Shown here one piece after another: positions 4,797-25,624 of a DNA stretch of 29,061 nt. The number at the start of each line of letters is the position of its first letter. Positions within the stretch are counted from its first letter, which is position 1. Below the pieces are notes generated by a model. The model saw only the letters and a program-made list of their open reading frames with translations, was not told the origin of the DNA and made no database searches. A program made the position numbers and the translations under genes. The stretch covers positions 1 through 29,061 of IMG/VR virus record IMGVR_UViG_3300010883_000288; one strand, 5' to 3'. This stretch comes from a virus.

Positions 4797-6286
4797 TGGG
4801 AATTAAAAAATATTTTGCCAACAAAGATAACACTATTACAAATGCATACAAAGCAGATTTAACTCTTCGAGGAACTGGCTCTAATATGGGTGCCTCGGAC
4901 ATTCTTGAATCGTTTGTTATATTTGGGCAAATAACTTCATCGGCCAATGTGGGAACTGCGGAACAATCACGAGTTCTCATAAATTTTGATATGCAAGAAA
5001 TTTTGAATGATATTTCTTCCGGAGCAGTTCCATCTTCAAGCGTAGACTATATGCTGCGCCTATACAACACCCCCCACGGGGGGACTACCCCTCTTAGTTA
5101 TAGCTTAGATGTGGCTATGGTATCAAGTGACTGGGATGAGGGACGGGGACTGGATATGGATAATTATTCGGATTACGGCTATTCTAACTGGATTAAGCCT
5201 AATGCCAGCGCCACTTGGAATGTAACAGGCGGTGATTATTACGGCGCTAGTGAGTACTCCTCAAGCTATTTCTTCTCTGGCGGCGTAGAGGACTTAGAGT
5301 TGAACGTTAATTTTGCTGTTGACTTATGGAGATCTCTAGACAAAGATAATTATGGATTACTAATAAAGCACACAGATGCTGTTATATCCGGGACTCTTGG
5401 GTCCTTTTATACTAAAAAGTTCTTTGGACGTACGAGCGAATTTGTATTAAAACGTCCAACAATTGAAGCTCGATGGAACTCTTCAAGGCAAGACCAGCGA
5501 GGAACATTTTTAGTAAGCAGTAGTCTAGCTTCTGCTGCTAACAATATTAACACTCTCTTCTTATACAACTCTGTAAGGGGGCAGCTACAAGATATTCCTT
5601 ACCTAGATAAGGGTCTTCTGGCCTTGAGCTTGTATAGAAATCATAGCGGCTCAGCTAGTGGCAGCGCCCTTCAGATATTGAACGATTCTAATGAAATAGT
5701 TACGGGAGTGACCGGCGGAGTTCTTATCGAGAATGGTGTCAAACGAACTGGGATATATACAGCTTCTTTTGCCAGTACAAGTTCACTAGAATCTCTTCAT
5801 GACGTATGGTTTACTTCTTCTAATGGGGGGGTCACACAAACTCAATATTTCACTGGTAATATTAGCCCAGCTTCCCTTCACGGTGACTCAACAATCTATC
5901 AAGAAGAATACATAAGTTCTTTGTCAAACCTAAAAAATTCTTATTTTGCGGGCGAGACTCCAACTTTACGCTTATTCACCCGTAAGAAAAATTGGAGTCC
6001 TAACATATATACAGTTGCAACCTCTGACATTGTTCCAGAAATTATTGAGGACGCATATTATAGATTATTTCGTGTAGTAGATAAATTTGAGATTTTACCA
6101 TATTCTACAGGAAGTAATCAATATACTAAATTGTCCTATGATATGAGCGGAAACTACTTTAAACTTGATACTTCTTACTTGGAAAATGGTTATGCATATG
6201 GACTTCAATTTTTATATTATGTCAACGGGATATACCAAGAACAGACAGAAATTTTCAAGTTCAGGATTAGCGAACCCACCCCATGA
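4796..6286 (+). CDS. Baseplate/tail structural protein, possible DNRLRE-like beta domain
   Basis: A 496-residue protein with no catalytic motif. Residues about 55-150 (SRVLINFDMQEI, MLRLYNT, then VSSDWDEGRGLDMDNYSDYG) resemble the beta-sandwich DNRLRE-type modules, where a RALLRFDL strand is followed by a W-x-EG turn. A further conserved-looking stretch at about 200-230 (SFYTKKFFGRTSEFVLKRP, then TIEARW) matches proteins I recall next to gp6 in large marine phages. The protein is rich in Ser, Tyr and Asn, as are its neighbours. GGGAG at 4781-4785 lies ten bases before the ATG, which overlaps the gp6 stop by one base (TAATG). The end overlaps the giant gene by four bases (ATGA). Its place between the gp6-like and giant proteins suggests a wedge-associated adaptor. 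The DNRLRE comparison is by eye. Confidence 0.8.
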   Translation: MGIKKYFANKDNTITNAYKADLTLRGTGSNMGASDILESFVIFGQITSSANVGTAEQSRVLINFDMQEILNDISSGAVPSSSVDYMLRLYNTPHGGTTPLSYSLDVAMVSSDWDEGRGLDMDNYSDYGYSNWIKPNASATWNVTGGDYYGASEYSSSYFFSGGVEDLELNVNFAVDLWRSLDKDNYGLLIKHTDAVISGTLGSFYTKKFFGRTSEFVLKRPTIEARWNSSRQDQRGTFLVSSSLASAANNINTLFLYNSVRGQLQDIPYLDKGLLALSLYRNHSGSASGSALQILNDSNEIVTGVTGGVLIENGVKRTGIYTASFASTSSLESLHDVWFTSSNGGVTQTQYFTGNISPASLHGDSTIYQEEYISSLSNLKNSYFAGETPTLRLFTRKKNWSPNIYTVATSDIVPEIIEDAYYRLFRVVDKFEILPYSTGSNQYTKLSYDMSGNYFKLDTSYLENGYAYGLQFLYYVNGIYQEQTEIFKFRISEPTP

Positions 6287-9200
6287 GTATTAAAAATCTT
6301 TTTGACAACAATCGTCAAGCTATCACTGTTAGTAAATATTTAAAGAAGACTAATGTAGCATCCCTTGGCGACGGGATTGAATCCCGTCAGCACCTTAGTC
6401 AGAGCATCGAAAAAAGAGATCGCTTTGTCCCGCCGGTAAATTATAATAACCCTAAAGATTTTGTTCATTTTGGTTCGGCAGAAAAGTATTATGATAATGC
6501 ATTTTCTTATACAACTAACTATTACCCCTATGACGGTTCTGATACTGAGATCACTGCCTATGGAAATGATCTAAATCCTTTAGAGTACTCTGTTTTCAAG
6601 GAATTCTATCCTCGGTCAACTGGATATATAAACCTGGGAGTATCCTATGGTTCAGTGACCTCCGACGCTACTGGCTATTATTCTTCTTCTAATGCAGAAT
6701 ATATAGAAACAAAAGGTGGACCTCATTCTGGCACCATATATTCAGAGTCTTCCTACCGAACATCTAATTTAGAGTTTGGCGGACCTTCCGGCTCTACGGT
6801 GGAGTTCTTCTTTAATAAAGGAACTGGAATACCTTCTACCGGACAATCCGAAAAACAAGTTGTTTTAGATGTCTGGAATAATGTCGTCTCATCCTCCCAG
6901 GATTATGGAAGACTTCGGATAGAAATATTTTCTGGCTCAGAGGACCGTTTTAAAGTAACTATGATGTCGGGAACTCAAGGGTTCTTCACTCAGTCTGTCC
7001 CTACAACCGGAGGTATCGCCGCCCAGCTTGTTAGCGGGTCTTGGCATAATTATTCTTTCGCTTTTCACACCTCCGATAATGAACCTTCTATAGATTTTTA
7101 TATTGACGGGGTATGTTGGGAAACTAATATTACGGCCAGCGGACACCAGGCTGGACTTGTTGGCGTGGTGACTGGGTCTCTTATTAGCAATATCGGCGCT
7201 CTCCGAACGGCACCGAGTGGGACCAAAGATGTTTCCGACTCAAGTTTATTTGGGTATGGAAAACTATCTGCATCTATCGATGAATTTAGATTTTGGAAAA
7301 AGGCTAGAACTCCTGAAGACATAGGGCAGTATTGGTTTACCCCCGTGTACGGAGGATCTAATCGAACCGATGCTAATCGAGCCCTTGGGGTATATTATAA
7401 ATTTAATGAAGGCATTACCTTAACCTCCAGTATCGACGACATAATCCTTGATTATTCTGGAAGACTTTCTAACGGCTTCTTTGCTGGGTATTCATCTGTA
7501 ACTTCTAGAAACACCGGCTCAGCATTAAACATTATGTCTTTAGTCTCAAAACGAGAGGATGGTGATCCAATCGTCAGGGCATCTAATCCTGTCTTGGTAT
7601 CCGAGAAAACCTCTTTTGTAGATTTGGGACGACAATATGATTACACTAACTCATCCTATCTGATGAACATGGTGCCCAGTTGGATTTATGAAGAAGACGA
7701 AAACACTTCTGGAGAGATGGGGAACCTCACTCAGATACTCGGCAGCTACTTAGATACCTTAAACCTTCAAATTTCTCAGTTGTCTAAGATAAAGGACATT
7801 GAATACATTAGCGGTAGTCTGACCGGAAGCTTAAACGAGTTCCCTTATAACAACCGATTACTCTCTAACGCCGGCCTCGTAGTCCCTGAGATTTTTGAAG
7901 ATATCGGGGTATTCGGACAGTTGCTGGAAAGAGACGAACAAATTAACTTTGATCAGGAACTATCCAAAGTTAAAAATGCAATATATAAAAACATTTATAA
8001 TAATCTCAACTTTATATTTAAATCCAAGGGAAATGAAAAGTCTATCCGTAATCTTATTCGGTGCTACGGCATAGACGAAAATATATTAGACGTTAGCGTA
8101 TATTCCAATAACGAGACTTATAGACTGGATAGCAAATATCTAGCCTCTGTATCTAATAAGAAATATATAGATTTTACTGGTCTCCGCAATGCTGAAAGTT
8201 CTGAAGCTACCGTCTATCAATATTACAATGGCGACACTAATAGTTATGGTATTATAACTGGAAGTTCTGAGCTAGAGTATTACGCCTTTACTTTAGAGGG
8301 CGAATTTATTTTCCCCAACAAGCAAAATAGCAGGCTATTAAATTACGTACCTCCTCAGGTCATATCCTCATCATTGATGGGATTTCATACTCCTCTTTCT
8401 ACGGATCCTGATACTGTTGACACTACCTGGGCTACGATTGGAGATCTTACTTATTCTGACCAAGGTTTTCAACTTTATGCGGTAAAAAGTCCTGGTGAAT
8501 ATGCCGAGGTTCTATCGCCAGACTTTTTAGTAAAAGATGCGTTCTTTGTATTGAAAGACAGTTCGGGGAATACTCTTCTGACCACTGACATTTACCAAAA
8601 TGTTTATGATGGACAAAAATGGAACTTTGCTTTATCCCTAAACAATGAAAAATATCCTTTCGCCGACCAAGTAGACGGAACTGAGATTGATAGTTCTACA
8701 AAATATAGATTAAATCTTTATGGAGTCAATTACGACACGGGCATTAAAAGAAACTCTTTCACTAAATCAGTTCTCCTAGATGCTCCCAGCGGATCTCAGA
8801 CCCTTCAATTTCCTAAGAAAATTTATACAGGAGCCCACCGAACTAATTTCTCTGGAGCCGTTTTGGCACAATCTGACGTCCGTGCTTCTAGTATACGTTA
8901 TTGGAGTCAACTGTTGCCTACCGGGACTATTGACATACATTCCCGAGATGTAGATAATTACGGACACTTGTCCCCTTATCAACAAGCTTACAGTTTTCAA
9001 AATAGTAGTATCCCTCAGGTCTATATCCCTAATATTGAAACCCTTGCTCTGAACTGGGACTTTACAAATCTAGAAAATCCAGATAGTGCCGGACGTGTTA
9101 CAGTCGCTGACTTCTCCTCCGGGTCTAACGCCAGCGGATATATGGAAAACTATCAGGGGACTGTATTCTCCAATGTTAATAAACGACAGCTAACAGGCCG

Positions 9201-12200
9201 AGGTGAATATTTTCTAACTGGATCTTCTGTTGCCGTTAAATCATATCCCTATACTGAAAAACAACAATTACCTGAATATGTGTTATCTCGTGATATGGTA
9301 GATATTCGAGCAACAGACATTGAAGTTTTCCGCCAAAACCAACAAGTTAACAACTTATATTTTTCTGTAGAAAAAAGTCCATATAAGAGCATATCCAAAC
9401 GCATGCTTCAATTTTTTGCCTCCCTAAGCGAGATGAATAACCTTATTGGCGAGCCAGCTAATTCATATCGACCTCACTATAAAAACATGGAAAAACTGAG
9501 AGAAGTATTCTTCAGGAGAGTGGGGAACGTCCCGGACTTTGACAAATATGCAGAATATTATAAATGGGTAGACGCAGCTATGGGACAAATAGTTACTCAA
9601 CTATTCCCGGCCTCTTCTAAGCATACCGTAGGAAGTCGCACCCTGGTAGAAAATCATCTTCTAGAAAGGCCTAAATATCATTGGCACTTCCTTGGCGACC
9701 GCAGAAAGCATAAGCCTGACGGACCCGACGAAACTAAAAAGCGTCGTATTTTTGAGACAGCTTTTAAGTGTGAAGAACGTCCGGGCTGGAGATTCTCGCA
9801 TGCGCCGCTAGGGTTAGCCCAAAACGAAAATTGCGATTGGTGGAAGTTTCGGGCGAATCGAGATCTTCCATCTTTCGGGGTCACCGATGCTGGTGTCATC
9901 AATACTCGCCAAGCAATTTTTAGCTCTTCGTTTAATAACCGCCCGCTTCCTACTTACCCCATAGCCCCAGGGGAGGTAGTATTCGAGGCAGGACAGGAAG
10001 TTCTGTGTTTATCTGCTGATCTAAATCCTTTAAAGGTAGGGGGCATTAACCAATATCTTAATAAAAAGAGAGATATCAGAACTCTTTCCTTCGATTCCTT
10101 CCAGCCTATCGAGGATTGTACTGATGTTTTAAACCCATTCGCTAAAACAAGAATAAATTTCCGAGGAACAGTAGACTCACGAAATTTTAAAGGTGAGCAA
10201 GTTACGCCCTTCGGCGCATTTAGTTCTTCTTTATCCGCTGACACTTCAGGGTATGGGGCACAGCTTAACTCAATGGGTCTTGTAAATATAGACCTTGCCA
10301 ACTTACATGAAGATAGCATTGTTCCCATGGGACATAGCGTACCTATGCAGGGTCCTTTTACTAATACCCAGGTTGGAGGATACCAGTCACGGCATGTTGC
10401 CCCTCTAAGAACTTTTAGAAGAAAAGAGAAATATCTTTTAAATATTGCTTCTGGTACCGGGTCCATGCAAATTTATGTGACACAGACTAATACTAGTACA
10501 GAAAATAGCACTCCTAAGGGGCATTACCTTCGGGGACTATCGGCTAAATCCCCAGTAAATATTGCCAATATTGTTACTACTACTGGTTCTTCTGAAATAG
10601 GAGCCGGGGTTAACGTTTTAGGAAATTATTCTAAAAATTACCAAGTAGTCCAAACGGTCGGACGAGACCGGAATAACATGGACTTTGTCTTTAATAACGA
10701 AAACTATAATAATGGTACCGAGCTTGGGTTCACCGGTTCAATGGCTTCAGCCTTTATAATCCCTCCACCACGTCGAATTGGACTTGGAGTTCCAGGCGAT
10801 GGAGCAGAGGGTCTTAGTTTTGCTTATTCTGGATCAGCAGATTATGCGGCTCCACGTCAAATATCCTCTAGAAGAATAAGCAAAACAATTTTTGTAAATC
10901 ATTTTGCTTCTCCTGGGTCTATTCTTGATTCTAAGCAGCAATATCGAGATGTCCCATCAGACCAGTATGCCGCCAATAACGCCCTTCCTTATCGTAATCA
11001 ACTAGTAAGAAAATTAGGTAATTTATCTTATCGTTTTTATGGCGCAGGACTTGGAGATGGTGCGGGATTAAATGGGTATTTAAGACTTTATACTGGGTGG
11101 GGAGGATTCCAACAAGACATCACCCCAGAGTTAGACGCAGTGGCAGGGAATCTATCTCTTCTTAACAGCGGCCAACCATTTACTATACCTATTGCAACTA
11201 GCGTCGCATCGGCAAGCATTTCTAATATCCCATCGGGAAGTATGGTTGCTTTGCATAAAACACAAAGAAATACAATCCAAAGAGTACAAATCAGCGGTAC
11301 TTCTCCGGTAGTAACTTATTATACCGCATCTGTTAGAGACAACGGTTTTGTAGGACGGCCCGTTCCAGACGCAGATAGGAGTCAGTGGTTCAATAACCTA
11401 ACAGGATCTAATAGTGAAGCTTCTACTCTGTACAGCCAATATATATTATCTTCTTCTCGTTACCCTGAAGATATTTCTCTAATCACTTCAAGCTTGAGTG
11501 CTCAAGAAATTAGCTCTTTTGGTGCGTTATCTGTAGTTTCTAATAACGCTGGAAATACTGATTTTGTGTGGGGCGGACAATTTGATGTTGTGCCATGGTC
11601 TCAGCTTCGTCACGGGCAAACTAACCAGGGACTTTATTTCAATAAAAATAATGTCTATAATATTATACCACGATCTAGCTTATATGCGCAGAACACTTCA
11701 AGAGATCTTATTTCTTCTTCTTATACAAGAGAGACCCGTGCTGGATCTTCGGTCTTATACCCCTATTATAGAAGGTTCCGGGAACCACCTGTAACTTCCA
11801 AATATAAGCCTTTGATCCATAAATTAAAAGCTTATCCTGGCAGCCCAGAGAAGACATTAAGAGCCCGTATTGACATAGAGCTTTCTTATGCTTATGGAAA
11901 CGAGCTTCAGGCATTTGCTAATAAAACATTAAATACCTATGTCAACCCCCCTACTAGCACTAAGCATGTGTCTCATAAAGAAAAGAGGCCTTATGAAATA
12001 TTCAGGAATAATTTTATAGAAGGTTTGCCAAAATCAGTAACCGGGATTGACTTCTTTCAGCAAATGCTGTATAGTGAGACAGTATATCCACGGGAAATAT
12101 ATACTTATATGTCAGCTTCTCGGGGTAGATTGGCGTTTTATAATAACTTTTGGAAAAACGATAAGAGTCCTGTAAGTAACAATATGGGGTCGTTTACTTC

Positions 12201-15200
12201 ATATTATCAACTTCGGGATTACGACGCCCATTCAGCAGGTCCTACTTTTAATATTCCGGGCTACAATCGTCAAATAACTAGAGTTACTGGAAACTTTCAT
12301 ACTTCACAGGGATATGCGGTCTTAGCTCTTGATCAGGTTCCGTGGAATCCTTCGGTAGGAGCAAGTGAACCGGCTGGCTTCGGTTCCGCTTCAATATGGC
12401 CAATGGATTCTTTCCTATATTCCGATTCCGTGTCTACTCTCAAAACTGTACTCACTGCCTCTGTGCCTATTTTATTGGCAGACGCCAGCACAATGGCTGC
12501 TGGTGAGTTAATGATGTTGAATTTTGGAACTGTTGAGGATGGCATTACTGACTCTCTGGCAACGACTTCTTCTGGTAGTTGGACCCGTAATAATAGTGTT
12601 ACTTCTCAATACGTGTATTCTGTGCCGGGACTAGCCACGGGGTCTGAAAATGTGGTTACTCCGGCTGTCCCTGCTACTTGTTCTGTGACAATGACAGGTT
12701 TTCTTGCGTCCTTTTTAGACCCAGTGGGCTCTGGAGACCCAACTAGTACCCCACCTCCTTTGAGTGTTAAAGTTTATGATAACTCACTTAATTTTATTAC
12801 TTTCTGGTTTGACGGCGGTAAGCCACCCGCTGGTCCTAGTCGTATTGATGCTACTAACTATCGGGCAGGTATTAACGGAGCAAGCGGGGTTTATGATGTT
12901 GCCCATGGGTTATACAACTCTATAGCTTTCGCCAAGACAAACGCAGAACTTTTAGTAACAGCCGTAGCACCAACGTCCCCATCAGGATTGGTAACAATTG
13001 TTGCTGACAATCCTGGAGCCGCCATCAACACAACTGCCGTCGGGGGGACGGCGATTGGGTCTCAGGCCACTCAGGTTGCATATGCAGGCGGCGTTAATGC
13101 AGTAACTACTGCACATATCACCAAAGATTTACCAGATGCGCTATGTCCAGGCGGCGCTCTTTCTCGTCCAGCTTGGACAGCCGGCAGCCAAAGAAAGTAT
13201 ATTGACGGAATTTCTAAAGGCGCTAATGCCCCCCAGCAATATCCCTTTTATAATTCTTATGAAGATTATGCTCAGGATGTTCGTTTAGCTGGACAGGAGT
13301 ATACAATTGTCCCAGAGTTCCGTATTAGTGAGGTTCTCCCCACCTACCAGTCCAGAGGAGATTTGAGATCATTGGTAAAATCTACTCTAACTCTCACTGG
13401 ATCCAGCCAAGATAATTATAGTGCCGAGTCCAACTCTGATTTTATACCTCGTTATGCTACCACAGATTTGATACAGTACCTGAGTCCATTTATGGAAGAA
13501 GGAAGCCGAGACTTGGAGTTTAATAAAAATCCTCGTCAATTGGGACTTAAGTCAGAAGCTATCTTAAAACTCCTTCCTTACGATGGGTTTTACCCAATGG
13601 ATCGAACCCTACAAATAGCCACTTTATTTTCTCAATCGTATAGCCCTGCTAGCGCAGCTAACTGGGGAGGAACTTCTGGTAGTTCGGCCCAACGCTGGCG
13701 TGCATTGCACAGACCATTCTTTGCACCAGGGGTTATATATAACTCCATTAAATCGGGGATGGGGGTGGAATATCCTATTTGGAGAGCCGGTCGAAACCAT
13801 GGGGAATTCCGAGAAACTTCAGGATATACTGTCCTTGCTGGAGCACTGTCTGGAGCCCTTCCTTCCGGCGCTACCATAGGGCAAATTCCTGGAAACCGTC
13901 GCCGCCGGAATGACGACGGCGCTGATAACTTTAACTTTTCTACTTCCGGAGTGGATAGCTTTTTCTGGTCAGAAAAATTACCATTCGAAGCTATTCTGAA
14001 ACCATTGGAATATATTTCCGACCAGAAGAAGGGGATATTACTTTCAGACCTTAGCCCTTATCTAATAAATGATATTACCGGATCAATAAGCACTACTGGG
14101 TCTGTTGACGACACTCTTTATCGTCTTTCCATCTCAAATTTCCTAGCTACAGTGCCTGAATTCTTTTTGAAAAAACAAGAAGATAATACAAATATGACTA
14201 AATTCGTTGCTCAAGTTCCCACACTGAGTAAAGAACCTCCCCAGGGAACTGCACCAGAGAATACTACCCAAGCTCGGACTGTTCTGGTTAAAGGACAAAC
14301 TGCTTATGTAATGGAGATAGGATTAAAGAAAACAGATAATTTCAATTTATACAATAACCCTTACGCCTTTGGATCCCCTACCTCTAGTGGGTCTGTTGAC
14401 TGGCAAACTATAACTGCTGCCGGCGCTGATATAGCAACCAGAACCCAGGTCGGATCTATACCAGAGGGAAAACCTTGGCCGTTACATCGAGGAGAATTTG
14501 CTCCATTCACACCACCATACTATTATGGTCCAAGCTTGGTGCGTATTATCTATATGCCCAAACAAGATAAAGAAGTAACCTTGAGCGAAATATTATACGG
14601 TCACGAAACCTATACTGAGTTTGTCAATGAAAATGGACAATATTTTGATTTTGCCTCTGGTTCTTTTAAGATTGAAGACGGGTCAACTATAGAGACTAGC
14701 GACTATCCTCCCTACCAATGGAATAGGTCCTGGCAGAACAGAATGGATCTAGACGCCTCTATAATCATTGACAATATTTTCCCAACAGAATTAGGAAACC
14801 TGTCTCCATTGGACCAGAATAAATGGGTAATCATGCCTAAGTGGGAGTGTCCTGCTTTAGATTTCTCCTCATCTGCTGGAACATATGACTTCTCATCTTC
14901 TATAAATCCGGCTAGCTTCGAAACTGAAACTTTAGGTATGTGGCACCAATATGGGGTAGAGCCAAGAACCAATGAGGGTGTGTATCTTTACCTGTCAGAT
15001 GTCAACGAAAATTCTCTTGAGTATCGCCTAGTCGGAAATCCGGCTGGATCCGAGTATCCTGGATCATTCGCAAGTGTAACTTCCTATGTCCAGAAAGTGA
15101 AGAAAATCCCCAAATTTGTGTTTGATGCTGGGGTGAACAACTTTGAATCTCTGGCGAAGCTTGTAGGGTTTAGGGAAGATGATATTATGCCACCTGGGCA

Positions 15201-16146
15201 GTGGGTTCCCGAGCGAGCAAAAAGAATGGGACAACTGGCCGAAGACAATGAAAAAACGATTTCGGAAGCTGTATTGGCAATGCCTTTCTGGTATGATACC
15301 AAAACAGAAGAATATGTATGTATGACGATGACCGCCGATGCTACACAACTAGGTCCTAAAATAAAAGAGTTCAGGCGTGCGTTTACTAAGTATTCTCTCC
15401 CTCCGGCATTGAAGGATTCCATTGCTTCAATGATACCTACTGACTATCCTGAAGTATCTCGAACAATTTTACCTTTTGGTCCGGATGATTATGAATCAAG
15501 TTTTAATGATTATTCAGTAGCTCGAACACCAATAATTTATCTTTTTGAACATACCGCTACATTAACCAAGCAAGACTTGGGAGATATTTGGCAAGGAGTA
15601 ATGCCCGATTTAGCCAAATACCTTAAGAAGACGGTTACGTCTATAGACCATTATATGCCAGGGGAACAGATAGAACAAACCCAGACGGTATTTCCAGAAA
15701 TTCTTCAAACTCAGCTTGATCTAGGGGTAGCCCAGACCGGACATCCCCGAGTAGATTTAATTGATGTAACTGGCTCTCCAAGTGGATTTCAAAGAGAAAT
15801 AAGATGGCTTGTGTTCAAGGTTAAACAACGGGGTCCTACTTCTTATTACGAGACTATCTTTAATGAGATAAACACGGGCAAGGGATCTCGATCTTTCCAG
15901 AATTTGTTCGGCTATATTAGCGCCGACCCCGGAATATCTCCCGCCTTGCGTGAAGCTATAGAACGACAAAAAAATGTATACACTGAATCCCTCTATAATG
16001 CTCAAGATTTGGGACAAGAACGTAATACATATAATTGGCCTTATGATTATTGCTCTCTTATCGAAATGACTAAGTTAACAGCTAAAACAGGATTCCGTCC
16101 CCAATTAGAAACGGAGACTAGGGAGTACCAAAGTGGGAGCATTTGA
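6283..16146 (+). CDS. Giant 3287-residue baseplate/tail protein with LamG-like domains and gpI/gp7-like motif
   Basis: A single uninterrupted frame of 9864 bases. Domains read by eye: residues 60-110, an N-terminal signature (FVHFGSAEKYYDNAFSYTTN, then YYPYDGSDTEI); about 165-400, a LamG/concanavalin-type jelly roll (TVEFFFNKG, YGRLRIEIFSG, SWHNYSFAFH, IDEFRFWKKARTPEDIG); about 470-600, a helical segment ending in NNLNFIFKSKGNEKSIRNLI plus RCYGID, reminiscent of the P2 gpI / T4 gp7 wedge family; about 665-905, a second jelly-roll-like domain (FTLEGEF to YTGAHRTNFSGAV and IHSRDVDNYG); about 1020-1145, a helical conserved-looking region (KWVDAAMGQIVTQLFPASS); about 2120-2280, a possible inserted beta domain; about 2470-2500, FFAPGVIYNSIKSG; about 3067-3287, a C-terminal domain (FEHTATLTKQDLGDIWQGVM, WLVFKVKQRG, NWPYDYCSLIEM). 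No close Shine-Dalgarno: AGGA is 16 bases upstream, so translation is probably coupled through the ATGA overlap. Position after gp25 and gp6 fits the third wedge component. Sugar binding by the LamG domains is inference. Confidence 0.85.
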   Translation: MSIKNLFDNNRQAITVSKYLKKTNVASLGDGIESRQHLSQSIEKRDRFVPPVNYNNPKDFVHFGSAEKYYDNAFSYTTNYYPYDGSDTEITAYGNDLNPLEYSVFKEFYPRSTGYINLGVSYGSVTSDATGYYSSSNAEYIETKGGPHSGTIYSESSYRTSNLEFGGPSGSTVEFFFNKGTGIPSTGQSEKQVVLDVWNNVVSSSQDYGRLRIEIFSGSEDRFKVTMMSGTQGFFTQSVPTTGGIAAQLVSGSWHNYSFAFHTSDNEPSIDFYIDGVCWETNITASGHQAGLVGVVTGSLISNIGALRTAPSGTKDVSDSSLFGYGKLSASIDEFRFWKKARTPEDIGQYWFTPVYGGSNRTDANRALGVYYKFNEGITLTSSIDDIILDYSGRLSNGFFAGYSSVTSRNTGSALNIMSLVSKREDGDPIVRASNPVLVSEKTSFVDLGRQYDYTNSSYLMNMVPSWIYEEDENTSGEMGNLTQILGSYLDTLNLQISQLSKIKDIEYISGSLTGSLNEFPYNNRLLSNAGLVVPEIFEDIGVFGQLLERDEQINFDQELSKVKNAIYKNIYNNLNFIFKSKGNEKSIRNLIRCYGIDENILDVSVYSNNETYRLDSKYLASVSNKKYIDFTGLRNAESSEATVYQYYNGDTNSYGIITGSSELEYYAFTLEGEFIFPNKQNSRLLNYVPPQVISSSLMGFHTPLSTDPDTVDTTWATIGDLTYSDQGFQLYAVKSPGEYAEVLSPDFLVKDAFFVLKDSSGNTLLTTDIYQNVYDGQKWNFALSLNNEKYPFADQVDGTEIDSSTKYRLNLYGVNYDTGIKRNSFTKSVLLDAPSGSQTLQFPKKIYTGAHRTNFSGAVLAQSDVRASSIRYWSQLLPTGTIDIHSRDVDNYGHLSPYQQAYSFQNSSIPQVYIPNIETLALNWDFTNLENPDSAGRVTVADFSSGSNASGYMENYQGTVFSNVNKRQLTGRGEYFLTGSSVAVKSYPYTEKQQLPEYVLSRDMVDIRATDIEVFRQNQQVNNLYFSVEKSPYKSISKRMLQFFASLSEMNNLIGEPANSYRPHYKNMEKLREVFFRRVGNVPDFDKYAEYYKWVDAAMGQIVTQLFPASSKHTVGSRTLVENHLLERPKYHWHFLGDRRKHKPDGPDETKKRRIFETAFKCEERPGWRFSHAPLGLAQNENCDWWKFRANRDLPSFGVTDAGVINTRQAIFSSSFNNRPLPTYPIAPGEVVFEAGQEVLCLSADLNPLKVGGINQYLNKKRDIRTLSFDSFQPIEDCTDVLNPFAKTRINFRGTVDSRNFKGEQVTPFGAFSSSLSADTSGYGAQLNSMGLVNIDLANLHEDSIVPMGHSVPMQGPFTNTQVGGYQSRHVAPLRTFRRKEKYLLNIASGTGSMQIYVTQTNTSTENSTPKGHYLRGLSAKSPVNIANIVTTTGSSEIGAGVNVLGNYSKNYQVVQTVGRDRNNMDFVFNNENYNNGTELGFTGSMASAFIIPPPRRIGLGVPGDGAEGLSFAYSGSADYAAPRQISSRRISKTIFVNHFASPGSILDSKQQYRDVPSDQYAANNALPYRNQLVRKLGNLSYRFYGAGLGDGAGLNGYLRLYTGWGGFQQDITPELDAVAGNLSLLNSGQPFTIPIATSVASASISNIPSGSMVALHKTQRNTIQRVQISGTSPVVTYYTASVRDNGFVGRPVPDADRSQWFNNLTGSNSEASTLYSQYILSSSRYPEDISLITSSLSAQEISSFGALSVVSNNAGNTDFVWGGQFDVVPWSQLRHGQTNQGLYFNKNNVYNIIPRSSLYAQNTSRDLISSSYTRETRAGSSVLYPYYRRFREPPVTSKYKPLIHKLKAYPGSPEKTLRARIDIELSYAYGNELQAFANKTLNTYVNPPTSTKHVSHKEKRPYEIFRNNFIEGLPKSVTGIDFFQQMLYSETVYPREIYTYMSASRGRLAFYNNFWKNDKSPVSNNMGSFTSYYQLRDYDAHSAGPTFNIPGYNRQITRVTGNFHTSQGYAVLALDQVPWNPSVGASEPAGFGSASIWPMDSFLYSDSVSTLKTVLTASVPILLADASTMAAGELMMLNFGTVEDGITDSLATTSSGSWTRNNSVTSQYVYSVPGLATGSENVVTPAVPATCSVTMTGFLASFLDPVGSGDPTSTPPPLSVKVYDNSLNFITFWFDGGKPPAGPSRIDATNYRAGINGASGVYDVAHGLYNSIAFAKTNAELLVTAVAPTSPSGLVTIVADNPGAAINTTAVGGTAIGSQATQVAYAGGVNAVTTAHITKDLPDALCPGGALSRPAWTAGSQRKYIDGISKGANAPQQYPFYNSYEDYAQDVRLAGQEYTIVPEFRISEVLPTYQSRGDLRSLVKSTLTLTGSSQDNYSAESNSDFIPRYATTDLIQYLSPFMEEGSRDLEFNKNPRQLGLKSEAILKLLPYDGFYPMDRTLQIATLFSQSYSPASAANWGGTSGSSAQRWRALHRPFFAPGVIYNSIKSGMGVEYPIWRAGRNHGEFRETSGYTVLAGALSGALPSGATIGQIPGNRRRRNDDGADNFNFSTSGVDSFFWSEKLPFEAILKPLEYISDQKKGILLSDLSPYLINDITGSISTTGSVDDTLYRLSISNFLATVPEFFLKKQEDNTNMTKFVAQVPTLSKEPPQGTAPENTTQARTVLVKGQTAYVMEIGLKKTDNFNLYNNPYAFGSPTSSGSVDWQTITAAGADIATRTQVGSIPEGKPWPLHRGEFAPFTPPYYYGPSLVRIIYMPKQDKEVTLSEILYGHETYTEFVNENGQYFDFASGSFKIEDGSTIETSDYPPYQWNRSWQNRMDLDASIIIDNIFPTELGNLSPLDQNKWVIMPKWECPALDFSSSAGTYDFSSSINPASFETETLGMWHQYGVEPRTNEGVYLYLSDVNENSLEYRLVGNPAGSEYPGSFASVTSYVQKVKKIPKFVFDAGVNNFESLAKLVGFREDDIMPPGQWVPERAKRMGQLAEDNEKTISEAVLAMPFWYDTKTEEYVCMTMTADATQLGPKIKEFRRAFTKYSLPPALKDSIASMIPTDYPEVSRTILPFGPDDYESSFNDYSVARTPIIYLFEHTATLTKQDLGDIWQGVMPDLAKYLKKTVTSIDHYMPGEQIEQTQTVFPEILQTQLDLGVAQTGHPRVDLIDVTGSPSGFQREIRWLVFKVKQRGPTSYYETIFNEINTGKGSRSFQNLFGYISADPGISPALREAIERQKNVYTESLYNAQDLGQERNTYNWPYDYCSLIEMTKLTAKTGFRPQLETETREYQSGSI

Positions 16147-16151
16147 CCTTT

Positions 16152-16179
16152 TTGAGCAGCATCTAACCCCTGATATAGA
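16152..16179 (+). promoter_or_regulatory. Candidate sigma70-type promoter (extended -10)
   Basis: In the 85-base gap after the giant gene, TTGAGC (16152-16157) is followed after 16 bases by TATAGA (16174-16179), preceded by TG plus one base, the extended -10 arrangement. This would start a transcript about 45 bases before the 297-residue gene. The match is reasonable for a host-type promoter, but AT-rich gaps give such matches by chance, and the phage may use a modified polymerase. Confidence 0.4.
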
Positions 16180-16231
16180 ATAATAGTTAAAAATATTAGA
16201 CCACAAATTGTAGGAAATGAATAATTAAGAT

Positions 16232-17125
16232 ATGGCCAAGTTTATAAATAGACAGGAAGAAGTTCTGCAAATACAATTAACTCCTTATGGGAAACACTTG
16301 TTTTCTCTGGGAAAATTTGACCCTCAGTATTATAGCTACTATGACGATGACATCCTGTACGATGGGGTATTTGGTGGGTTAAATGAAACCCAAAATAATA
16401 TTGTGGATAGAATTAAGTCCACCGATCGCCTTGAGATCTTTAGTAATTTTTCTGGGTCGGTAAGAAATAACCAAACGAATTCCAATATTGATAAAAATAG
16501 CTTTGACTCCTTGACTACTGCCAACGGTAAATTTTTTAGATGTCTTGGGTCTAACAGTCCTTGGTCTGATTATGCACCAGCTTGGTCAATTAGCGTAGTA
16601 GGGGATGGATCCTTATTCACGGAGACAGAAACTGTAACTTACCAGAGTGAATATAGTATGCCAACCTTGAATACGGATCTGGACCTAGAATATAGCGGAT
16701 CTATCTCCGAAGTTATGGATGGGCAAGGAAATATCATTCCTTTGGTGTACTATGATATGATACATGAGGATCGTCTCTTGCTGGATATACAAGAACTAAA
16801 TACTATTTTTAAAATGGGGGGCAATTATGATGTTGAAGTTTTTAGAATCCCCGATAATCAGTCTTTATCCACTCAGAATTTGGAGTTTATAGATCCCAAC
16901 TCTGACGCCTATTCTATACTAAGAGAGCAGGTGGAAGACCCAACAACTATTTCTTATTTACAGCCGGATAGAGACCTTGAGACATTGTTCCCAGTAATCA
17001 ACCCTTCTTTCGTTGAATATTTCTTAGAGGTAAGGGTAGACGACGAAATATCTGATATACCAGATTTCCGGTCTGGTATCTATTCAACTAACCGTCCTAA
17101 CGACCCACAGCAACCATGCGAGTAA
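16232..17125 (+). CDS. Tail/baseplate structural protein with collar-fibre-like N-terminal motif
   Basis: A 297-residue protein starting MAKFINRQEEVLQIQLTPYG, followed by a KHLFSLGKFDPQYYSYYDDD element. I recall closely similar N-termini in large marine phages, where they are annotated only as structural. The pattern (V/I)L-x3-LT-x2-G-(K/R)...G-x-F...DD-x-I is repeated in the 353-residue protein at 24547 and is reminiscent of the N-terminal attachment domain of phage tail-collar fibres. The remainder is acidic and aromatic with no enzyme motif. The start is set by the conserved N-terminus: the ribosome site is weak (AGGA at 16212-16215, 16 bases upstream), and an in-frame upstream ATG at 16217 is closed by a stop after two codons. 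It is followed after five bases by the 1254-residue gene. Function is inferred from context. Confidence 0.8.
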   Translation: MAKFINRQEEVLQIQLTPYGKHLFSLGKFDPQYYSYYDDDILYDGVFGGLNETQNNIVDRIKSTDRLEIFSNFSGSVRNNQTNSNIDKNSFDSLTTANGKFFRCLGSNSPWSDYAPAWSISVVGDGSLFTETETVTYQSEYSMPTLNTDLDLEYSGSISEVMDGQGNIIPLVYYDMIHEDRLLLDIQELNTIFKMGGNYDVEVFRIPDNQSLSTQNLEFIDPNSDAYSILREQVEDPTTISYLQPDRDLETLFPVINPSFVEYFLEVRVDDEISDIPDFRSGIYSTNRPNDPQQPCE

Positions 17126-17130
17126 AATAA

Positions 17131-20100
17131 ATGGCTAATCCTCCCCCCGAATTATCGAATCTGGGCTTATCTCAGGCTGCCGGCGTTTCGGCAATGCTTC
17201 CTACTTATTCTGTAAAACTAGCAGAAATAACCAATAATAGCCCATCCGATAGCAAAGAAGAGACTCTTAGCATAACTCTTAGATCTAATTTCATAGAGGC
17301 CGTAAAAGAGTCTTATATACCTTGGTACGATACAAATAATTATATAAATAACCTACGTATTCGTCTTATCATATGTACTGACGAGGAAGTCTGCAAGAGG
17401 ATTGATTATGTTCAGCAGCGGGTTAACGAATATCTTTCGGGGGTTATGGGAAAAACGGATCCAGCCGCCGCTGATCTTCTGCCAGACTTATTCCTTAAAT
17501 CTACTGACTCAGATACTATTATAAATGATCTGATGAAAGATGGTGGTCCGTTTGACGCAGGATCGCTCACCCAGAAAATAAAAGATACCGGACGCAGGGA
17601 ACATTCTTATACTGACGACGAAAGATTCCCAGAATTTATGGAGAATGTCCTTATAATCGACATTCCAGTGCAAAATACCTTACCAGTTAACCAGAATGGA
17701 CGTATCTCTCGCCGTAACACTCGCAGGGTCACTAAATTGTCCCAGCCCGACGGTAGTCAATCCTCCCTCTATTCTTTGGAAGAGATACCAACAACTCCCA
17801 TAACCTTTGAAATCGGGTTAGCACAACAGTTCAAATCAACCAATCTGACCCAGTTTAGCGTTTATGCCTTTACCTATTTTGATATGCGTAGATATGACGA
17901 ATCTCAAGGCCGCCGCCAGCAGCGACCGGGTCGTGGACCTTTTACTGTTATGGAATCTGGTATTGGATATATTTCACCTACTGTCTTTTCGGGAATATAT
18001 ACTCGCTATGGTGCCCAAGATCGAACGGTATTCACAAGAAGAGACGGACAGATCGACGTAGAAAGACGTGGACGCCAGGGAGTTAACCGGGTTCCATTAA
18101 TCGTGGGTTTTGCCGACGCTCAACCGCTAGCAGCCCCAGACAGTTCTAGGCTACATAACTTTAGTTCCTATACTAACAGGGCAGTAGATTCCCTCCAAAA
18201 CCGTATCTTTGAATATATGGATCGTTCTATCGATCGATCTTATATAGGATCAAGAGCCAAGGTCTTATTGGCTGATAATAATTACTTTTCTCCCTTGTGG
18301 CTTTCCAAAGATACCAACGAAGATATAAGATATTCTTATGCTTTTTCATTACGTTCTTACATGATGAACAACAGTAAATATCCGTGGCTATATATCAATT
18401 CATCTTCTGCTCAAGAACTTTTCACCGGTGGCACCGTGATATCTTCTACTAATGAAGACGGTGTAGACGAAAGAACCCATATATTAGCGACGACTATGAC
18501 AAAGTCCTTATTAAACTTTGATGAGTTTGGGTCATCTAACAAGCTTGGATCTATTTCTCGTACCACAGAGAAAAAACTCGGACCCCTAAACCCCCAGACG
18601 GTAATCGCCAGCCCTACTTCTATTTTAAATTTAGACCTAGGAGAAGGCGTAACTGAAAACGTAGCTATATACGAGGGGCGAGATGTTCTAGCTGCCGAGA
18701 AATTATCTCAGCAGTTGTCTCGTATTCAGTACAGTGTTAACTACGTCATAAAGGATAGCGCTGAAATTTATATATCTAAGTATATTAAAATATTAGAAGA
18801 ATCCCAAAGGGAAGTCACTAAGCTGTATAATTTTATCGTGAATTCTCCGCCGGCAATCTATGCCGAAGATCAAAATGTACCTGGCATAGTAAGGACTGGA
18901 GTGGGACTTTTTGATTATGAGACCTTGACCCGAGAAATTCCCATGGAACGTATCGCCATCAAAAATACCAACAACTTACAATACAGAACGGCTGCTGATA
19001 TAATAAACACCCAAATCGACATATACCTAGGATCTTTGGAGGGGTTTGGTATTCCCTATGACTTGGTCTCTTTGAAGCAGGAGCTTCAATCCTTATCTAA
19101 TTCCCCTAATACGGTAGGGTTGCAGCTTATAGCGTCTTCTATCGGCGATCTGGCGAGTTCTTTATCCGGGATTATTGGTGACGGCACCAAGCGTTTTATC
19201 AATGATGGGTCGCAGGATGAGAAATCTATACTGGAGGGCCGGGGATTTTGCCAAAGAAAGCTTGTCCTCCTCCAGGTAGACCATAAGTTCGATAATTTTG
19301 CAACTTCAGGACTAACCTTTGGGACAGGCTACGAATATATTGAAGAGCCCTCTTTTAGCCTACCGTCCCAGGGTCTTCCTCGTATTTCCCCTAACGATTA
19401 TATTAATCGAGTAGTGAGTGAGTTTAACAAATATTTTTACATCCCGAGTGATAGCAATCTCTCTGAGGAGGATGCTGCATTTTCCTCTACATACGAGAAC
19501 TCAAGTATCTCGTTTTTAACCCCCCAGGTTATTAATACATACGGCAAGAATAAAATTATACAAACTAACTATCGCAACGGAAACGGAATCAATACCAATT
19601 ATGACCTGAATCGATATGGTGAATTATTTAGTGACCTCCTTCGGATCAAAAAAGAATCTACCTTCCTTAACGGATCTTACTATCTCTTATCCGACTCCCT
19701 TGTTACGGATTCTGCTAATCAAAGGTTGTTTAATACTTCTCTACAAACAATGGTTGGAGATTATTATTGTGACATAAAATTTGACTCCCTCCTGGACGTG
19801 CCTTCTATAAACCCCCCTTCGGTGACTCCCGCAGGACATACTCTTTTAGAAGTAGATTTGCGACTGCTTCGTATGCTACCGATGATTTACGGCGGGGGCT
19901 CCGATCGATCCTTTACCTCTACTTATTGGCTCGATTTAATTGAAAGAAGCACAAACCTACATTATCCTAGTTCTATAAACAACGACATGAACAAACAGTT
20001 AACTCCGCCGTCTCGTAAGGAAGGGTATCCCATCAAGACCATGTTCAATATCCTAGGAGAACTAGAATTAAATGATACTTACCGAGAATTACCCCAAAGT

Positions 20101-20895
20101 GCTGGGCTATCATTCAACTCAATGAAAGATTTAGCGTTACTTCTCGGATTAAATGAGGCTAACATAAAAGACTATATCGAAGGCATTAGGAATTCCGGTA
20201 TCCCTAATCAATATAAATCGATGTTTGTGACCGCTGTAAGTTCGGAAAATCTATCTCTAGGATCGGGCTTCGAAGCGGTACGTAATTTAGTGAAAGAGGA
20301 GGATCTACCAATATCTGTAGAGACGAGTATTAGCATGCTGACTGGAGATTCACAGTTGCCTTACGGACAGACTTATGATACCATGAAGATATATTCTAAA
20401 ATGTTGGCTTATTGGATGAACTATAAACAACTATGTATAGTGGAGTATTTATCTGGATTTGATAAAACTTCACCAGACTTAATGGTAGACCAGAACAGGG
20501 TAGTAGCTTCGGATGAATCTATTGTAGGATTCAATATAATAGCTACTAATCCTTTTGTCGGTAGGCCTCGAATGCCTGTCTGGAAAACTTTAGACCCAGG
20601 TTTCCTTTTAAAGACTGGTGGACTTAATCGGTTATGCCGGGTTAGAAAATTAATACCTAGTGATATTTCTTCTAACTCAAACCCAGGAGACAAGGACGGC
20701 AGCGAATTGAGGTCATTCTTTGACCCTCAAATTTTCTTCTCTAGCGAAGAAATATTTAATCTTCCTACTTATAACCAGTACTTCATATTAGGAGAGTCGT
20801 CAGGAATCGATCCGGTACCAGGCACCTCAACGCCCGATACTCCTGACACTACATTGGGTGGACTCGTGGGACGATCTAACGGAGATGGATATTAG
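17131..20895 (+). CDS. Large 1254-residue structural protein of unknown function
   Basis: I do not recognise this protein beyond its general phage-structural character. Visible features: a proline-rich start (MANPPPELSNLG); an N-terminal beta region with a SIT-LRSNF strand; a basic Arg-rich patch at about residues 255-270 (SQGRRQQRPGRG) with further RR clusters to about 315; a long amphipathic helical stretch at about 541-575 (KYIKILEESQREVTKLYNFI); and a C-terminal segment with LMVDQNRVV, NPFVGRPRMPVWKTLDPGFL and a Pro/Thr/Asp tail (GTSTPDTPDTTLGG). There is no signal peptide, membrane segment or catalytic motif. It starts five bases after the previous stop with only a weak GCGAG ribosome site, and its stop abuts the next start. 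The size and pairing with the 1185-residue protein suggest a large baseplate or peripheral tail component, by context only. Confidence 0.78.
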   Translation: MANPPPELSNLGLSQAAGVSAMLPTYSVKLAEITNNSPSDSKEETLSITLRSNFIEAVKESYIPWYDTNNYINNLRIRLIICTDEEVCKRIDYVQQRVNEYLSGVMGKTDPAAADLLPDLFLKSTDSDTIINDLMKDGGPFDAGSLTQKIKDTGRREHSYTDDERFPEFMENVLIIDIPVQNTLPVNQNGRISRRNTRRVTKLSQPDGSQSSLYSLEEIPTTPITFEIGLAQQFKSTNLTQFSVYAFTYFDMRRYDESQGRRQQRPGRGPFTVMESGIGYISPTVFSGIYTRYGAQDRTVFTRRDGQIDVERRGRQGVNRVPLIVGFADAQPLAAPDSSRLHNFSSYTNRAVDSLQNRIFEYMDRSIDRSYIGSRAKVLLADNNYFSPLWLSKDTNEDIRYSYAFSLRSYMMNNSKYPWLYINSSSAQELFTGGTVISSTNEDGVDERTHILATTMTKSLLNFDEFGSSNKLGSISRTTEKKLGPLNPQTVIASPTSILNLDLGEGVTENVAIYEGRDVLAAEKLSQQLSRIQYSVNYVIKDSAEIYISKYIKILEESQREVTKLYNFIVNSPPAIYAEDQNVPGIVRTGVGLFDYETLTREIPMERIAIKNTNNLQYRTAADIINTQIDIYLGSLEGFGIPYDLVSLKQELQSLSNSPNTVGLQLIASSIGDLASSLSGIIGDGTKRFINDGSQDEKSILEGRGFCQRKLVLLQVDHKFDNFATSGLTFGTGYEYIEEPSFSLPSQGLPRISPNDYINRVVSEFNKYFYIPSDSNLSEEDAAFSSTYENSSISFLTPQVINTYGKNKIIQTNYRNGNGINTNYDLNRYGELFSDLLRIKKESTFLNGSYYLLSDSLVTDSANQRLFNTSLQTMVGDYYCDIKFDSLLDVPSINPPSVTPAGHTLLEVDLRLLRMLPMIYGGGSDRSFTSTYWLDLIERSTNLHYPSSINNDMNKQLTPPSRKEGYPIKTMFNILGELELNDTYRELPQSAGLSFNSMKDLALLLGLNEANIKDYIEGIRNSGIPNQYKSMFVTAVSSENLSLGSGFEAVRNLVKEEDLPISVETSISMLTGDSQLPYGQTYDTMKIYSKMLAYWMNYKQLCIVEYLSGFDKTSPDLMVDQNRVVASDESIVGFNIIATNPFVGRPRMPVWKTLDPGFLLKTGGLNRLCRVRKLIPSDISSNSNPGDKDGSELRSFFDPQIFFSSEEIFNLPTYNQYFILGESSGIDPVPGTSTPDTPDTTLGGLVGRSNGDGY

Positions 20896-23800
20896 ATGGT
20901 AGCTAAAAATTATACACCCGATGGAGAGATACTTCCAAATGATGACGAAGGGGTATTAAGTCCCAGTGCTCAAGCAGACCTACCGGATCAATCTTTTATG
21001 GACGAGCCCATGGATGAGCCCCCCATTCCATTTAACACTGAATATTATTTAGACCCATTGCGCCCAGACATTCTGACCATATCTCCTGGATATCGAAAAC
21101 TAAAAGTTTTTAAAACTCCGAATTTAGTGAGCCCTATCGATCCATTCTCTATGTTCTATAAAACTATAAACAAGACAATGTATAGTGATCTATTGGAGCG
21201 TCGTAATAACGAGAACGGTGGGCAATATTCTCGTATCTATTTAGGACGGGGAAGATCTTTTAACGGGTTAATCGAGCAAGACATTGATATACAGGAAGGG
21301 CTCCGGAGCCCATCTTCATTGCAAGTGCCCCGTAGTGAGACTTATTTTAACTGGTCCTATGGGGGCTACGAAGGAGAGGTAGAGCAGGGGCAAGAAACCT
21401 CTATAACTTATGGTCCCTTGTTCCGAGGCCCTGGGTCTCCTGATCTGAGTAAAGAATGGCAGAAGGCATACCTATCTCTTTCCATACCTAAGGGGAAAGT
21501 TAGCGATAAATGGATCAACGACGAATTGGTTTACTCTAATAATCTTCCCGGTTTCTTTCCAAACCCCAGAGGAATAAACTTAGCCCAAAGAATCTCCTCA
21601 TTGGCTATGTCTTCGAGCATCAGGCGTTTACCTGCCGATCAAGAAAAGGAAGAACTACAAAAAGTTAGAGCGGGTACTGAAGCAGGACGAGATATAATAA
21701 GCCAACAACTGTCGGTGGGCGGCTTTGCTGATAATCTAGAAGACTTTCTGGAAACCGCATCACCATCCGATCTAGAGGGACTATCTTCGGACAATATAAC
21801 TGCTTATTCTATTCAGAAAATACTCGACAAACTAGACAAGAAGAGGGCCATTCGGGCAGCAATATCAGCATATACTCCTGACTTAAAATATGAACAGAGG
21901 AAGAAATCTTATGTTTCTTATGATTTCTTTACTTTTGAATCTAAATCCCCTTACGTGCAGGATGTATTTATAAATAAATTTGATAGGTCTATGCAATGGC
22001 GAGATCCTGAGTCGATGGCAAGAGCTAAACTTCGAACTGATTATAACTCTTATCAACAAGTCTACGAAGAGGGCATGGGAAATCCCCGAGTCCTTGAAGC
22101 TACTATTCCTAATTTTTATGCTTATAACATTTTAGGCATCTTAGATGGGACTCAACTTTCTTATTCGGACACATTTGAGGGAGGCATCGCCGCCAACACT
22201 ATTGGACTAACTCCTGACGGGCGAAATGCGGATGGAGTAGTCGTTATCCCTCAACTCCCTTTGTATATTCAAAGAGGACTTCGTCTGGAAGAGAGTTATA
22301 GGGCACCCCTTAATCTTTATACCGATGGTGCCTTGCTCCCTCCGGATTTAAATAATGCCACTGAAACCTCTAGGTTCCTAGAAGGTTATGGCGAAGCATT
22401 GAATAACTCCTCTGTAAGTGACACTGAATTAGCTGTAGAAATTAATACTCGGGGACAGAATATTCTATTTGCATCTCGTGAGATAATACAATTTTCACAA
22501 ATGGCCAATAGTAAAGCAGCTAGAAGCTTTCCCACCTCGGTTACTATTGACATCCCCTTCACCGAAACAGGTCCACTGGGATTTGAGTTATTTGGCTGGT
22601 TAGGAGTAGCTGACCAAGGCATCCAGGAACAGCAGAGCACAGCTTATACCACGGTGGCTCTCAATTCCTACCTTAGGATGGAAGAGGACTTAAGTACAGG
22701 GGAAGTTCCATACACCATCCCGGCAGGAATTGAATCTAGTGGGTATTCCAGTAATGTTATCTCCGTTACTCCTAGCGGACGAGGTACCGCAGCGGGGTTA
22801 GGGGGAGAACCCAACGATGCTTCAGGTACGCCGGATCAGGAACTCACCCGGCAGCAAGAGAACAACTCTTTATACGACGCTTTCCTGATAGACGAACTCG
22901 GGGTAGGGGAATTGAAACAATTAAATTATGCATCTCCCTTAAAAGTGTATGACTTGGAACAGTTCTTTGACAAAATCAGCGACCCTATAGGAGAATTTTT
23001 ACTCTTCACGCAGGCCGGGGGGGAACTTATACAGGGAGAATCATTATTATCGGAAGGAAATAATAATTTAGAAAGTAGATTAAGGTCTGCGGTTGACAGT
23101 CATTATAAACAAGGGGCTGAAGGATATGCTCATGACGTGAAGAACTTATGTAGTTTTTCTGATGTAGTCAGAGGGCGGGAAACTGTTACTAGAGAAACAT
23201 TATTTTATAAAATTATTAAATACCAAGTAGGAAATACGCCGGATCAAAACAAGATTATTCAAACATTTTTCCTCCCAAATGCTCCTGAAATAGGACCAGG
23301 AAAGATGCACCCCTTCTTCCGATATTTAGATACCCAAGTCAAATATGGAGTATCTTACCGCTATGAGGTGCTTGCTTGCGATATCGTATACGGCAGCGAG
23401 TTTAGATTTAGAACTTATTCCTATAATATGGGGGAAGTAGATCCGGTTACCGGCATCGCTTTAGACTTGGACGCAAATATCGTGAATATCACGAATTCTA
23501 TATATATATCGTCTCACGTCGAGACACTTTCGAAACCAAAAATTGTGGAATACCCTATTATTTCCCATAAGATACAGTTTAATAACTTAAACGGTGAGAT
23601 TTTAGGCGGGAATGCATTCCCTGACGCTGTGGTCGAAGATTATCCACCCCCGCCCCCGGCCATTTTACCGATCCCCTTACAAGGAAATTATCGACAAATT
23701 TTGTTTGGGGCTAATACCACTGAGGCTGACTTTACTGAAGAGGGATCTTTGCCTTATATCTCTTTCACGAACAACGAGTCTGAGAAAATGTATACAATGT

Positions 23801-24453: not shown

Positions 24454-24458
24454 AATTT

Positions 24459-24482
24459 ATCTTAGGACGGGACATCCTAGAT
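24459..24482. other. Small inverted repeat (hairpin) in the gap after the 1185-residue gene
   Basis: An imperfect hairpin: ATC-T-TAGGA pairs with TCCTA-GAT around a seven-base loop (CGGGACA), with one unpaired T in the left arm. It starts five bases after the stop codon, a typical terminator location, but what follows on the + strand is A-rich rather than T-rich, so it does not read as a standard intrinsic terminator. It may instead protect an mRNA end or be chance. Confidence 0.35.
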
Positions 24483-24487
24483 AAAAA

Positions 24488-24517
24488 TTCAAAAAGAATA
24501 ACCACACACTATTTAAT
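24488..24517 (+). promoter_or_regulatory. Weak candidate promoter before the 353-residue gene
   Basis: TTCAAA (24488-24493), 18 bases, then TTTAAT (24512-24517), in the 93-base gap ahead of the gene starting at 24547. Four of six and five of six bases match the -35 and -10 consensus. The region is very AT-rich, so the support is weak. It gains some weight from lying just after the hairpin, where one unit could end and the next begin. Confidence 0.25.
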
Positions 24518-24546
24518 AAAGACCGATCTTTGTAAGGGGCAGACAA

Positions 24547-25608: not shown

Positions 25609-25624
25609 GAATTAGGAAAGAACT

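Follow-up and report, generated by a model that had tools for sequence, protein, structure and literature searches.

A giant protein encoded behind gp25-like and gp6-like genes as a probable baseplate wedge subunit of uncultured marine phages

The giant protein discussed here (3287 aa) is encoded on a 29-kb viral record, IMGVR_UViG_3300010883_000288, which was analysed over its whole length of 29,061 nucleotides (the window). Residues 430-1131 of this protein quite probably represent the gp7/gpI-type wedge core of a contractile-tail baseplate. A preliminary description of the window had placed the gpI/gp7 wedge subunit at this gene. The assignment has since been supported by the position of the gene, by a conserved motif that can be aligned with known wedge proteins in a single register, and by the lack of any other gpI-type match in the whole records searched, but it is not proven. 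It is regarded as no more than probable because each single score is weak and the structure prediction was poor.

The giant is proposed to be a gp7/gpI-type wedge subunit that has grown at either end. The frame of the wedge would be formed by residues 430-1131 packed against the gp6-like and gp25-like proteins, and six copies of the giant would be present in each baseplate. Two flanking modules, an N-terminal one that includes the LamG/ConA-like domain and a C-terminal one of about 2100 residues, would lie outside the wedge, in the manner of the gp7-like part of eCIS wedges. These outer modules would build a peripheral baseplate structure and would likely serve as surface-contact or fibre-docking parts. 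The C-terminal module probably assembles beside the core both as a covalent part of it and as a separate protein, because relatives encode it separately and its sequence is still conserved. With its uncertainty stated, this proposal offers a function for one of the very large proteins of uncultured marine phages, whose group is widespread.

Gene order and domain architecture

The long genes of the window all lie on one strand (Table 1). The giant gene was borne out as a single uninterrupted open reading frame with an ATG start and a stop codon, and its ATG forms an ATGA overlap (6283-6286) with the stop codon of the gene before it. The order of a gp25-like gene, a gp6-like gene, one adaptor and the giant, as the preliminary description had read it, recurs in nearly all of 96 viral-contig relatives, a few of which lie on truncated contigs. 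The giant therefore stands where gp7/gpI is found in the W-J-I (25-6-7) order, with one adaptor between it and the gp6-like protein. The gp6-like protein shares 32-34% identity over nearly its full length with proteins of Flavobacterium phage immuto and Microcystis phage Mel-JY01, and it matches the gp6 of PDB entry 9f4a (E 0.0013). The adaptor counterpart in immuto (L018 21808-22917) gives a sub-threshold match to a DNRLRE domain model (E 2.2e-4), a hint that the adaptor may have a fold of the surface-protein type.

Table 1. Features of the wedge-like gene cluster and of the giant protein (positions in the window)
Feature	Position	Strand	Basis or remark
gp25-like baseplate wedge protein (sheath initiator), 134 aa	2568..2972	+	Pfam GPW_gp25 PF04965, E 2.3e-12; phrog_261, E 2.6e-16
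gp6/gpJ-like baseplate wedge protein, 596 aa	3006..4796	+	PHROG wedge families phrog_10646 and phrog_219, E ~1e-21
Adaptor between gp6-like protein and giant, 496 aa	4796..6286	+	Place conserved in immuto, Mel-JY01 and LR756508; profile E 7e-13 to 9e-21
Giant protein, 3287 aa	6283..16146	+	Open reading frame; fused-form relatives of 2632-4325 aa
N-terminal module, residues 1-429, with LamG/ConA-like domain at 215-347 (DNA 6925-7323)	6283..7569	+	Laminin_G_3
Conserved core, residues 430-1131, proposed gp7/gpI-like wedge part	7570..9675	+	68-sequence alignment of marine relatives
KSKGNEKSIRNLIRCYG motif, residues 580-596	8020..8070	+	Most conserved stretch of the giant
Hypervariable linker, residues 1132-1165	9676..9777	+	Split site: stop and new start in 15 relatives
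C-terminal module, residues 1166-3287	9778..16143	+	Separate protein of ~2180 aa in split relatives (split-relative alignment)
Copy of the mobile ~125-aa domain, residues 2131-2271	12673..13095	+	47 copies at discrete sites in relatives

Conservation is even over residues 1-1131 (42-66% identity to close relatives) with a peak at residues 541-600, and the core has few indels among close relatives. From residue 1132 onward the linker varies freely, and it measures 28-97 residues in those fused relatives where it could be measured. The C-terminal module is more variable than residues 1-1131 and carries insertions; no Pfam family scored above its cut-off there and no known domain was found. Profile comparison of the N-terminal and C-terminal parts for an internal duplication gave only short and weak pairwise matches.

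The LamG-like domain named in the preliminary description is real. It was matched by Pfam Laminin_G_3 with an E value of 1.9e-6 in the window and was matched in 10 of 12 relatives, the best of which reached 1.7e-8. The score exceeds the gathering cut-off of 27.6 bits when residues 1-1140 are scanned (28.6 bits) and falls under it when the whole 3287-aa protein is scanned (24.6 bits). Contact with carbohydrate through this domain is plausible, judging from its family.

The conserved motif and the case for a wedge core

The motif at residues 580-596 follows the consensus K-S-K-G-[T/N]-E-K-[S/A]-x-R-N-L-I-R-C-x-G. Six of its positions (K580, K582, G583, N590, R593 and G596) are identical in all 81 aligned sequences. 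An element resembling the KGT-type pattern of gpI-like proteins had been noted here, and such a motif is indeed present and conserved, but the window itself has KGN and not KGT (KGT occurs in 67 of the 81 sequences and KGN in 14). The conserved region thus holds a motif of the KGT..[AS]..R type. It falls in one register with P2 gpI, cyanophage gp7 and T4 gp7: the segment aligned with the giant is the same for all three, and it also links cyanophage gp7 to T4 gp7.

Residues 436-650 were compared with profiles of known wedge families using hhalign. P2 gpI scored above all controls (28.1 bits; the best of 22 control profiles reached 20.9 and the best of 60 column shuffles 17.2), but T4 gp7 did not: its 24.3 bits were exceeded by two of 60 shuffles, and its match to the giant comprises 19 aligned columns. 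Cyanophage gp7 reached 22.6 bits, barely over the best control (22.2 bits). No signal was obtained for Mu gp48 or for a four-sequence eCIS-type (TIGR02242) profile in the same comparison.

Searches of whole records point to the same place. No separate gpI/gp7 homologue was found outside the giant or its homologue with TIGR02242 (14 whole records) or phrog_5726 (20), where immuto and Mel-JY01 are labelled complete and the viral contigs may be fragments. The two families gave five matches in total, with 11-14.5 bits, and each of them coincides with the motif in the giant ORF or in the immuto homologue. Among 68 core members, TIGR02242 is the most often matched NCBIfam family, and phrog_5726 (a P2 gpI family) ties for first place in PHROGs (E 0.08-0.15). 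The giant, with a best score of 14.5 bits, does not reach the curated TIGR02242 cut-off of 51.85 bits. Relatives of P2 gpI themselves score only 22-37 bits, under the same cut-off, which therefore does not define gpI as a whole.

All of these gpI/gp7 similarities are weak and confined to about 35 residues, and none passes a curated cut-off. It also speaks against the assignment that the giant is not adjacent to the gp6-like gene but is parted from it by the adaptor. Searches of the PDB by sequence (four alignments and one protein) matched no wedge-protein chain and returned nothing or chance matches. AlphaFold prediction of residues 1-1140 from 12 sequences was poor (mean pLDDT 38.7). The profile evidence for a gpI/gp7 identity thus appears to be real but weak, and it becomes stronger when combined with gene order.

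Relatives, natural fissions and a mobile domain

The core of the giant is common in viral contigs. Besides 16 close relatives, a survey with the core profile found at least 525 stretches, of which 80 were kept. No match to residues 1-1500 was found by tblastn among 50,697 cultured-phage records, and no cultured-phage record was matched by the last 1020 residues. Three distant relatives were reached via the gp6-like protein, namely immuto, Mel-JY01 and the 484-kb huge phage LR756508. Their neighbourhood is as in the window, except that the giant is replaced by a protein of 1265-1404 aa with matches to parts of the core. For instance, immuto protein 161 (1265 aa) and Mel-JY01 WWT39511 (1336 aa) resemble the giant in part of the core and in gene neighbourhood, but neither the lectin-like N-terminal module nor the C-terminal module was found in them or in LR756508. 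No paper on the giant-protein family was found in the literature.

The preliminary description had suggested that, if its assignment was right, the wedge protein itself had grown to over 3000 residues. The size of the ORF is real, but the wedge-like part is limited to residues 430-1131 and the C-terminal part of about 2100 residues is physically separable. In 15 relatives, some of them near-copies, a stop and a new start occur near residue 1140, and the second gene (~2180 aa) aligns with the C-terminal part of the window protein. The reading frame is fused across this junction in 66 sequences, the window included. In a tree of the gp6-like proteins, the fused state lies at the base of the marine clade and the split state needs two changes; this tree was rooted on the three distant phages, with long outgroup branches, and was built by a quick search with SH-aLRT support only. 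The two splits comprise one clade of nine rows and a single contig (L023) whose two genes overlap as ATGA. On this tree the fused form appears to be ancestral within the marine clade, and fission near residue 1140 appears to have occurred twice, later. A fused relative near the split clade (L027) has a proline/glycine-rich linker of 97 residues that resembles the ends of the N proteins in split relatives.

Other relatives are broken elsewhere. Breaks followed by usable starts occur in single relatives at ~1640, ~1710 and ~1965, and a further relative is broken at ~905. Two further breaks, in L004 (~400; contig ~9900) and L059 (~1846 in its own numbering; contig ~10100), have the appearance of frameshifts and were left out of the count of natural splits. 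Breaks at several junctions indicate that the giant is built as a chain of modules that can be separated. For expression and structural studies, the naturally split forms indicate where the giant can be cut, and with them the need for a covalent link between outer module and wedge becomes testable.

Part of the length differences between giants comes from a mobile domain of about 125 aa that is absent from Pfam. It is present in 0-4 copies per giant, at discrete and nested sites whose window equivalents are ~950, ~1391-1406, ~1613-1647, ~1737, ~2100-2285 and ~2863, and it also occurs inside the adaptor of two relatives. In a 12-copy alignment, the copies share 16-37% identity with that of the window; carriers noted besides the window are L002, L005, L006, L013, L014, L017, L032, L046 and L066. 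A profile of the domain gave 11 matches in 22 whole records, in ORFs of 644, 2186-2217, 2937 and 3761 aa, lengths that correspond to adaptor, C-module and giant ORFs. In its behaviour the mobile domain would resemble the Ig-like accessory domains found in structural proteins of phages.

Taken as a whole, the architecture leads us to lean towards a baseplate periphery that, in the marine clade, would be one covalent polypeptide of 2600-4300 residues. It would join a gp7-like core to an outer-wedge protein, carry the nomadic ~125-aa domain at several fixed sites, and have been re-cut at module boundaries more than once. If true, these cuts would amount to a dissection, made by nature, of a giant structural protein of a virus.

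Two other explanations of the giant have been weighed. It could be a peripheral tail fibre or adhesin (a receptor-binding protein) seated on the wedge, with the true gp7/gpI being another, unrecognised protein and the motif a chance or convergent helical element. Such a protein might well be large and have a LamG/ConA-like domain and a variable, insertion-rich C-terminal part, and the weak gpI/gp7 scores and lack of a PDB match would then be expected; receptor-binding parts vary, however, whereas the motif-bearing core is among the least indel-prone parts of the giant. This core is also kept directly behind gp25, gp6 and the adaptor in the Flavobacterium and Microcystis phages, and the whole records searched (14 with TIGR02242, 20 with phrog_5726) hold no other gpI-type match. 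The adhesin explanation is considered unlikely for these reasons. Far less likely still is that the giant ORF is an assembly artefact in which neighbouring genes were fused through missing stop codons. In close relatives the junction does hold a clear stop and start that separate two genes, but dozens of independent contigs, drawn from many metagenomes, carry fused ORFs of 2632-4325 aa, and these make up the larger part of the tree, which refutes the artefact. The gp7/gpI-type wedge subunit is thus retained as the preferred identity of the giant.

Comparison with known wedge proteins and neighbouring genes

A giant gp7 behind gp25 and gp6 is already annotated in cyanophage S-SSM7, and the phenomenon is not new. 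The S-SSM7 gp7 (SSSM7_101, 3007 aa) resembles the giant in its length of about 3000 residues, its long C-terminal extension, its KGT-type motif (MSKGTDSSYQILFKLLYGED, at ~200-220) and its place after gp25 and gp6. It differs in that no adaptor lies between gp6 and gp7 and that the motif is nearer the N-terminus (in the giant it is at residue 582). No similarity between the two proteins was found by BLASTP, and the profile match of the giant to T4-like cyanophage gp7 is confined to the motif. In S-SSM7 (L145), two ORFs are annotated as gp7, at 7562-16585 (3007 aa) and 17651-26656 (3001 aa), with one structural gene between them. PHROGs also holds a wedge family of 4179 positions, which is weakly matched by T4 gp7.

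The classical wedge proteins are shorter. P2 gpI and TIGR02242 share with the giant a KGTxxAIRxxxxxxG motif of the same spacing and a gene position after W and J (gp25 and gp6), but P2 gpI has 176 aa. Large proteins of this family also exist, as ORFs of 734-1154 aa carry a TIGR02242 domain. T4 gp7 (1032 aa) likewise follows gp6, and its STKGIEASYKFLFKVLYNEE segment aligns with the motif, but its score is not above shuffles and no similarity beyond the motif was found.

The (gp6)2-gp7 module has been described as conserved across contractile systems, with gp7 counterparts of 242-1032 residues (PMC10457771). In eCIS wedges, the gp7-like part is reported to lie exposed at the side and to bind fibres, and it has been described as a hotspot of evolutionary re-engineering (PMC8894135). 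The giant can be likened to Alg12/Afp12 of these systems, where the gp7-like part is enlarged, peripheral and fibre-binding. Alg12 combines gp6-like and gp7-like parts in one fused protein, whereas gp6 is a separate gene in the window. The marine clade would fit and extend the published idea that gp7 is the part of the contractile baseplate that is rebuilt by evolution.

Several observations were made on the neighbouring genes. The first gene of the window (P0001, 2-2566) encodes 854 aa, and its relatives exceed 1600 aa and run off their loci; the window copy may be cut by the contig end. Downstream of the giant lie large genes (P0006-P0008) without convincing family matches. Further on, P0012 (28062-28640) has a weak RuvC match (E 0.036) and is a possible Holliday-junction resolvase adjoining the structural genes. 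P0010 (25625-26845) and P0011 (26857-28050) have a C-terminal segment of about 80 aa in common, which also ends up to five tandem genes in Mel-JY01 (L019 28996-37945). This recurrence suggests that the segment may be a shared attachment or capping domain.
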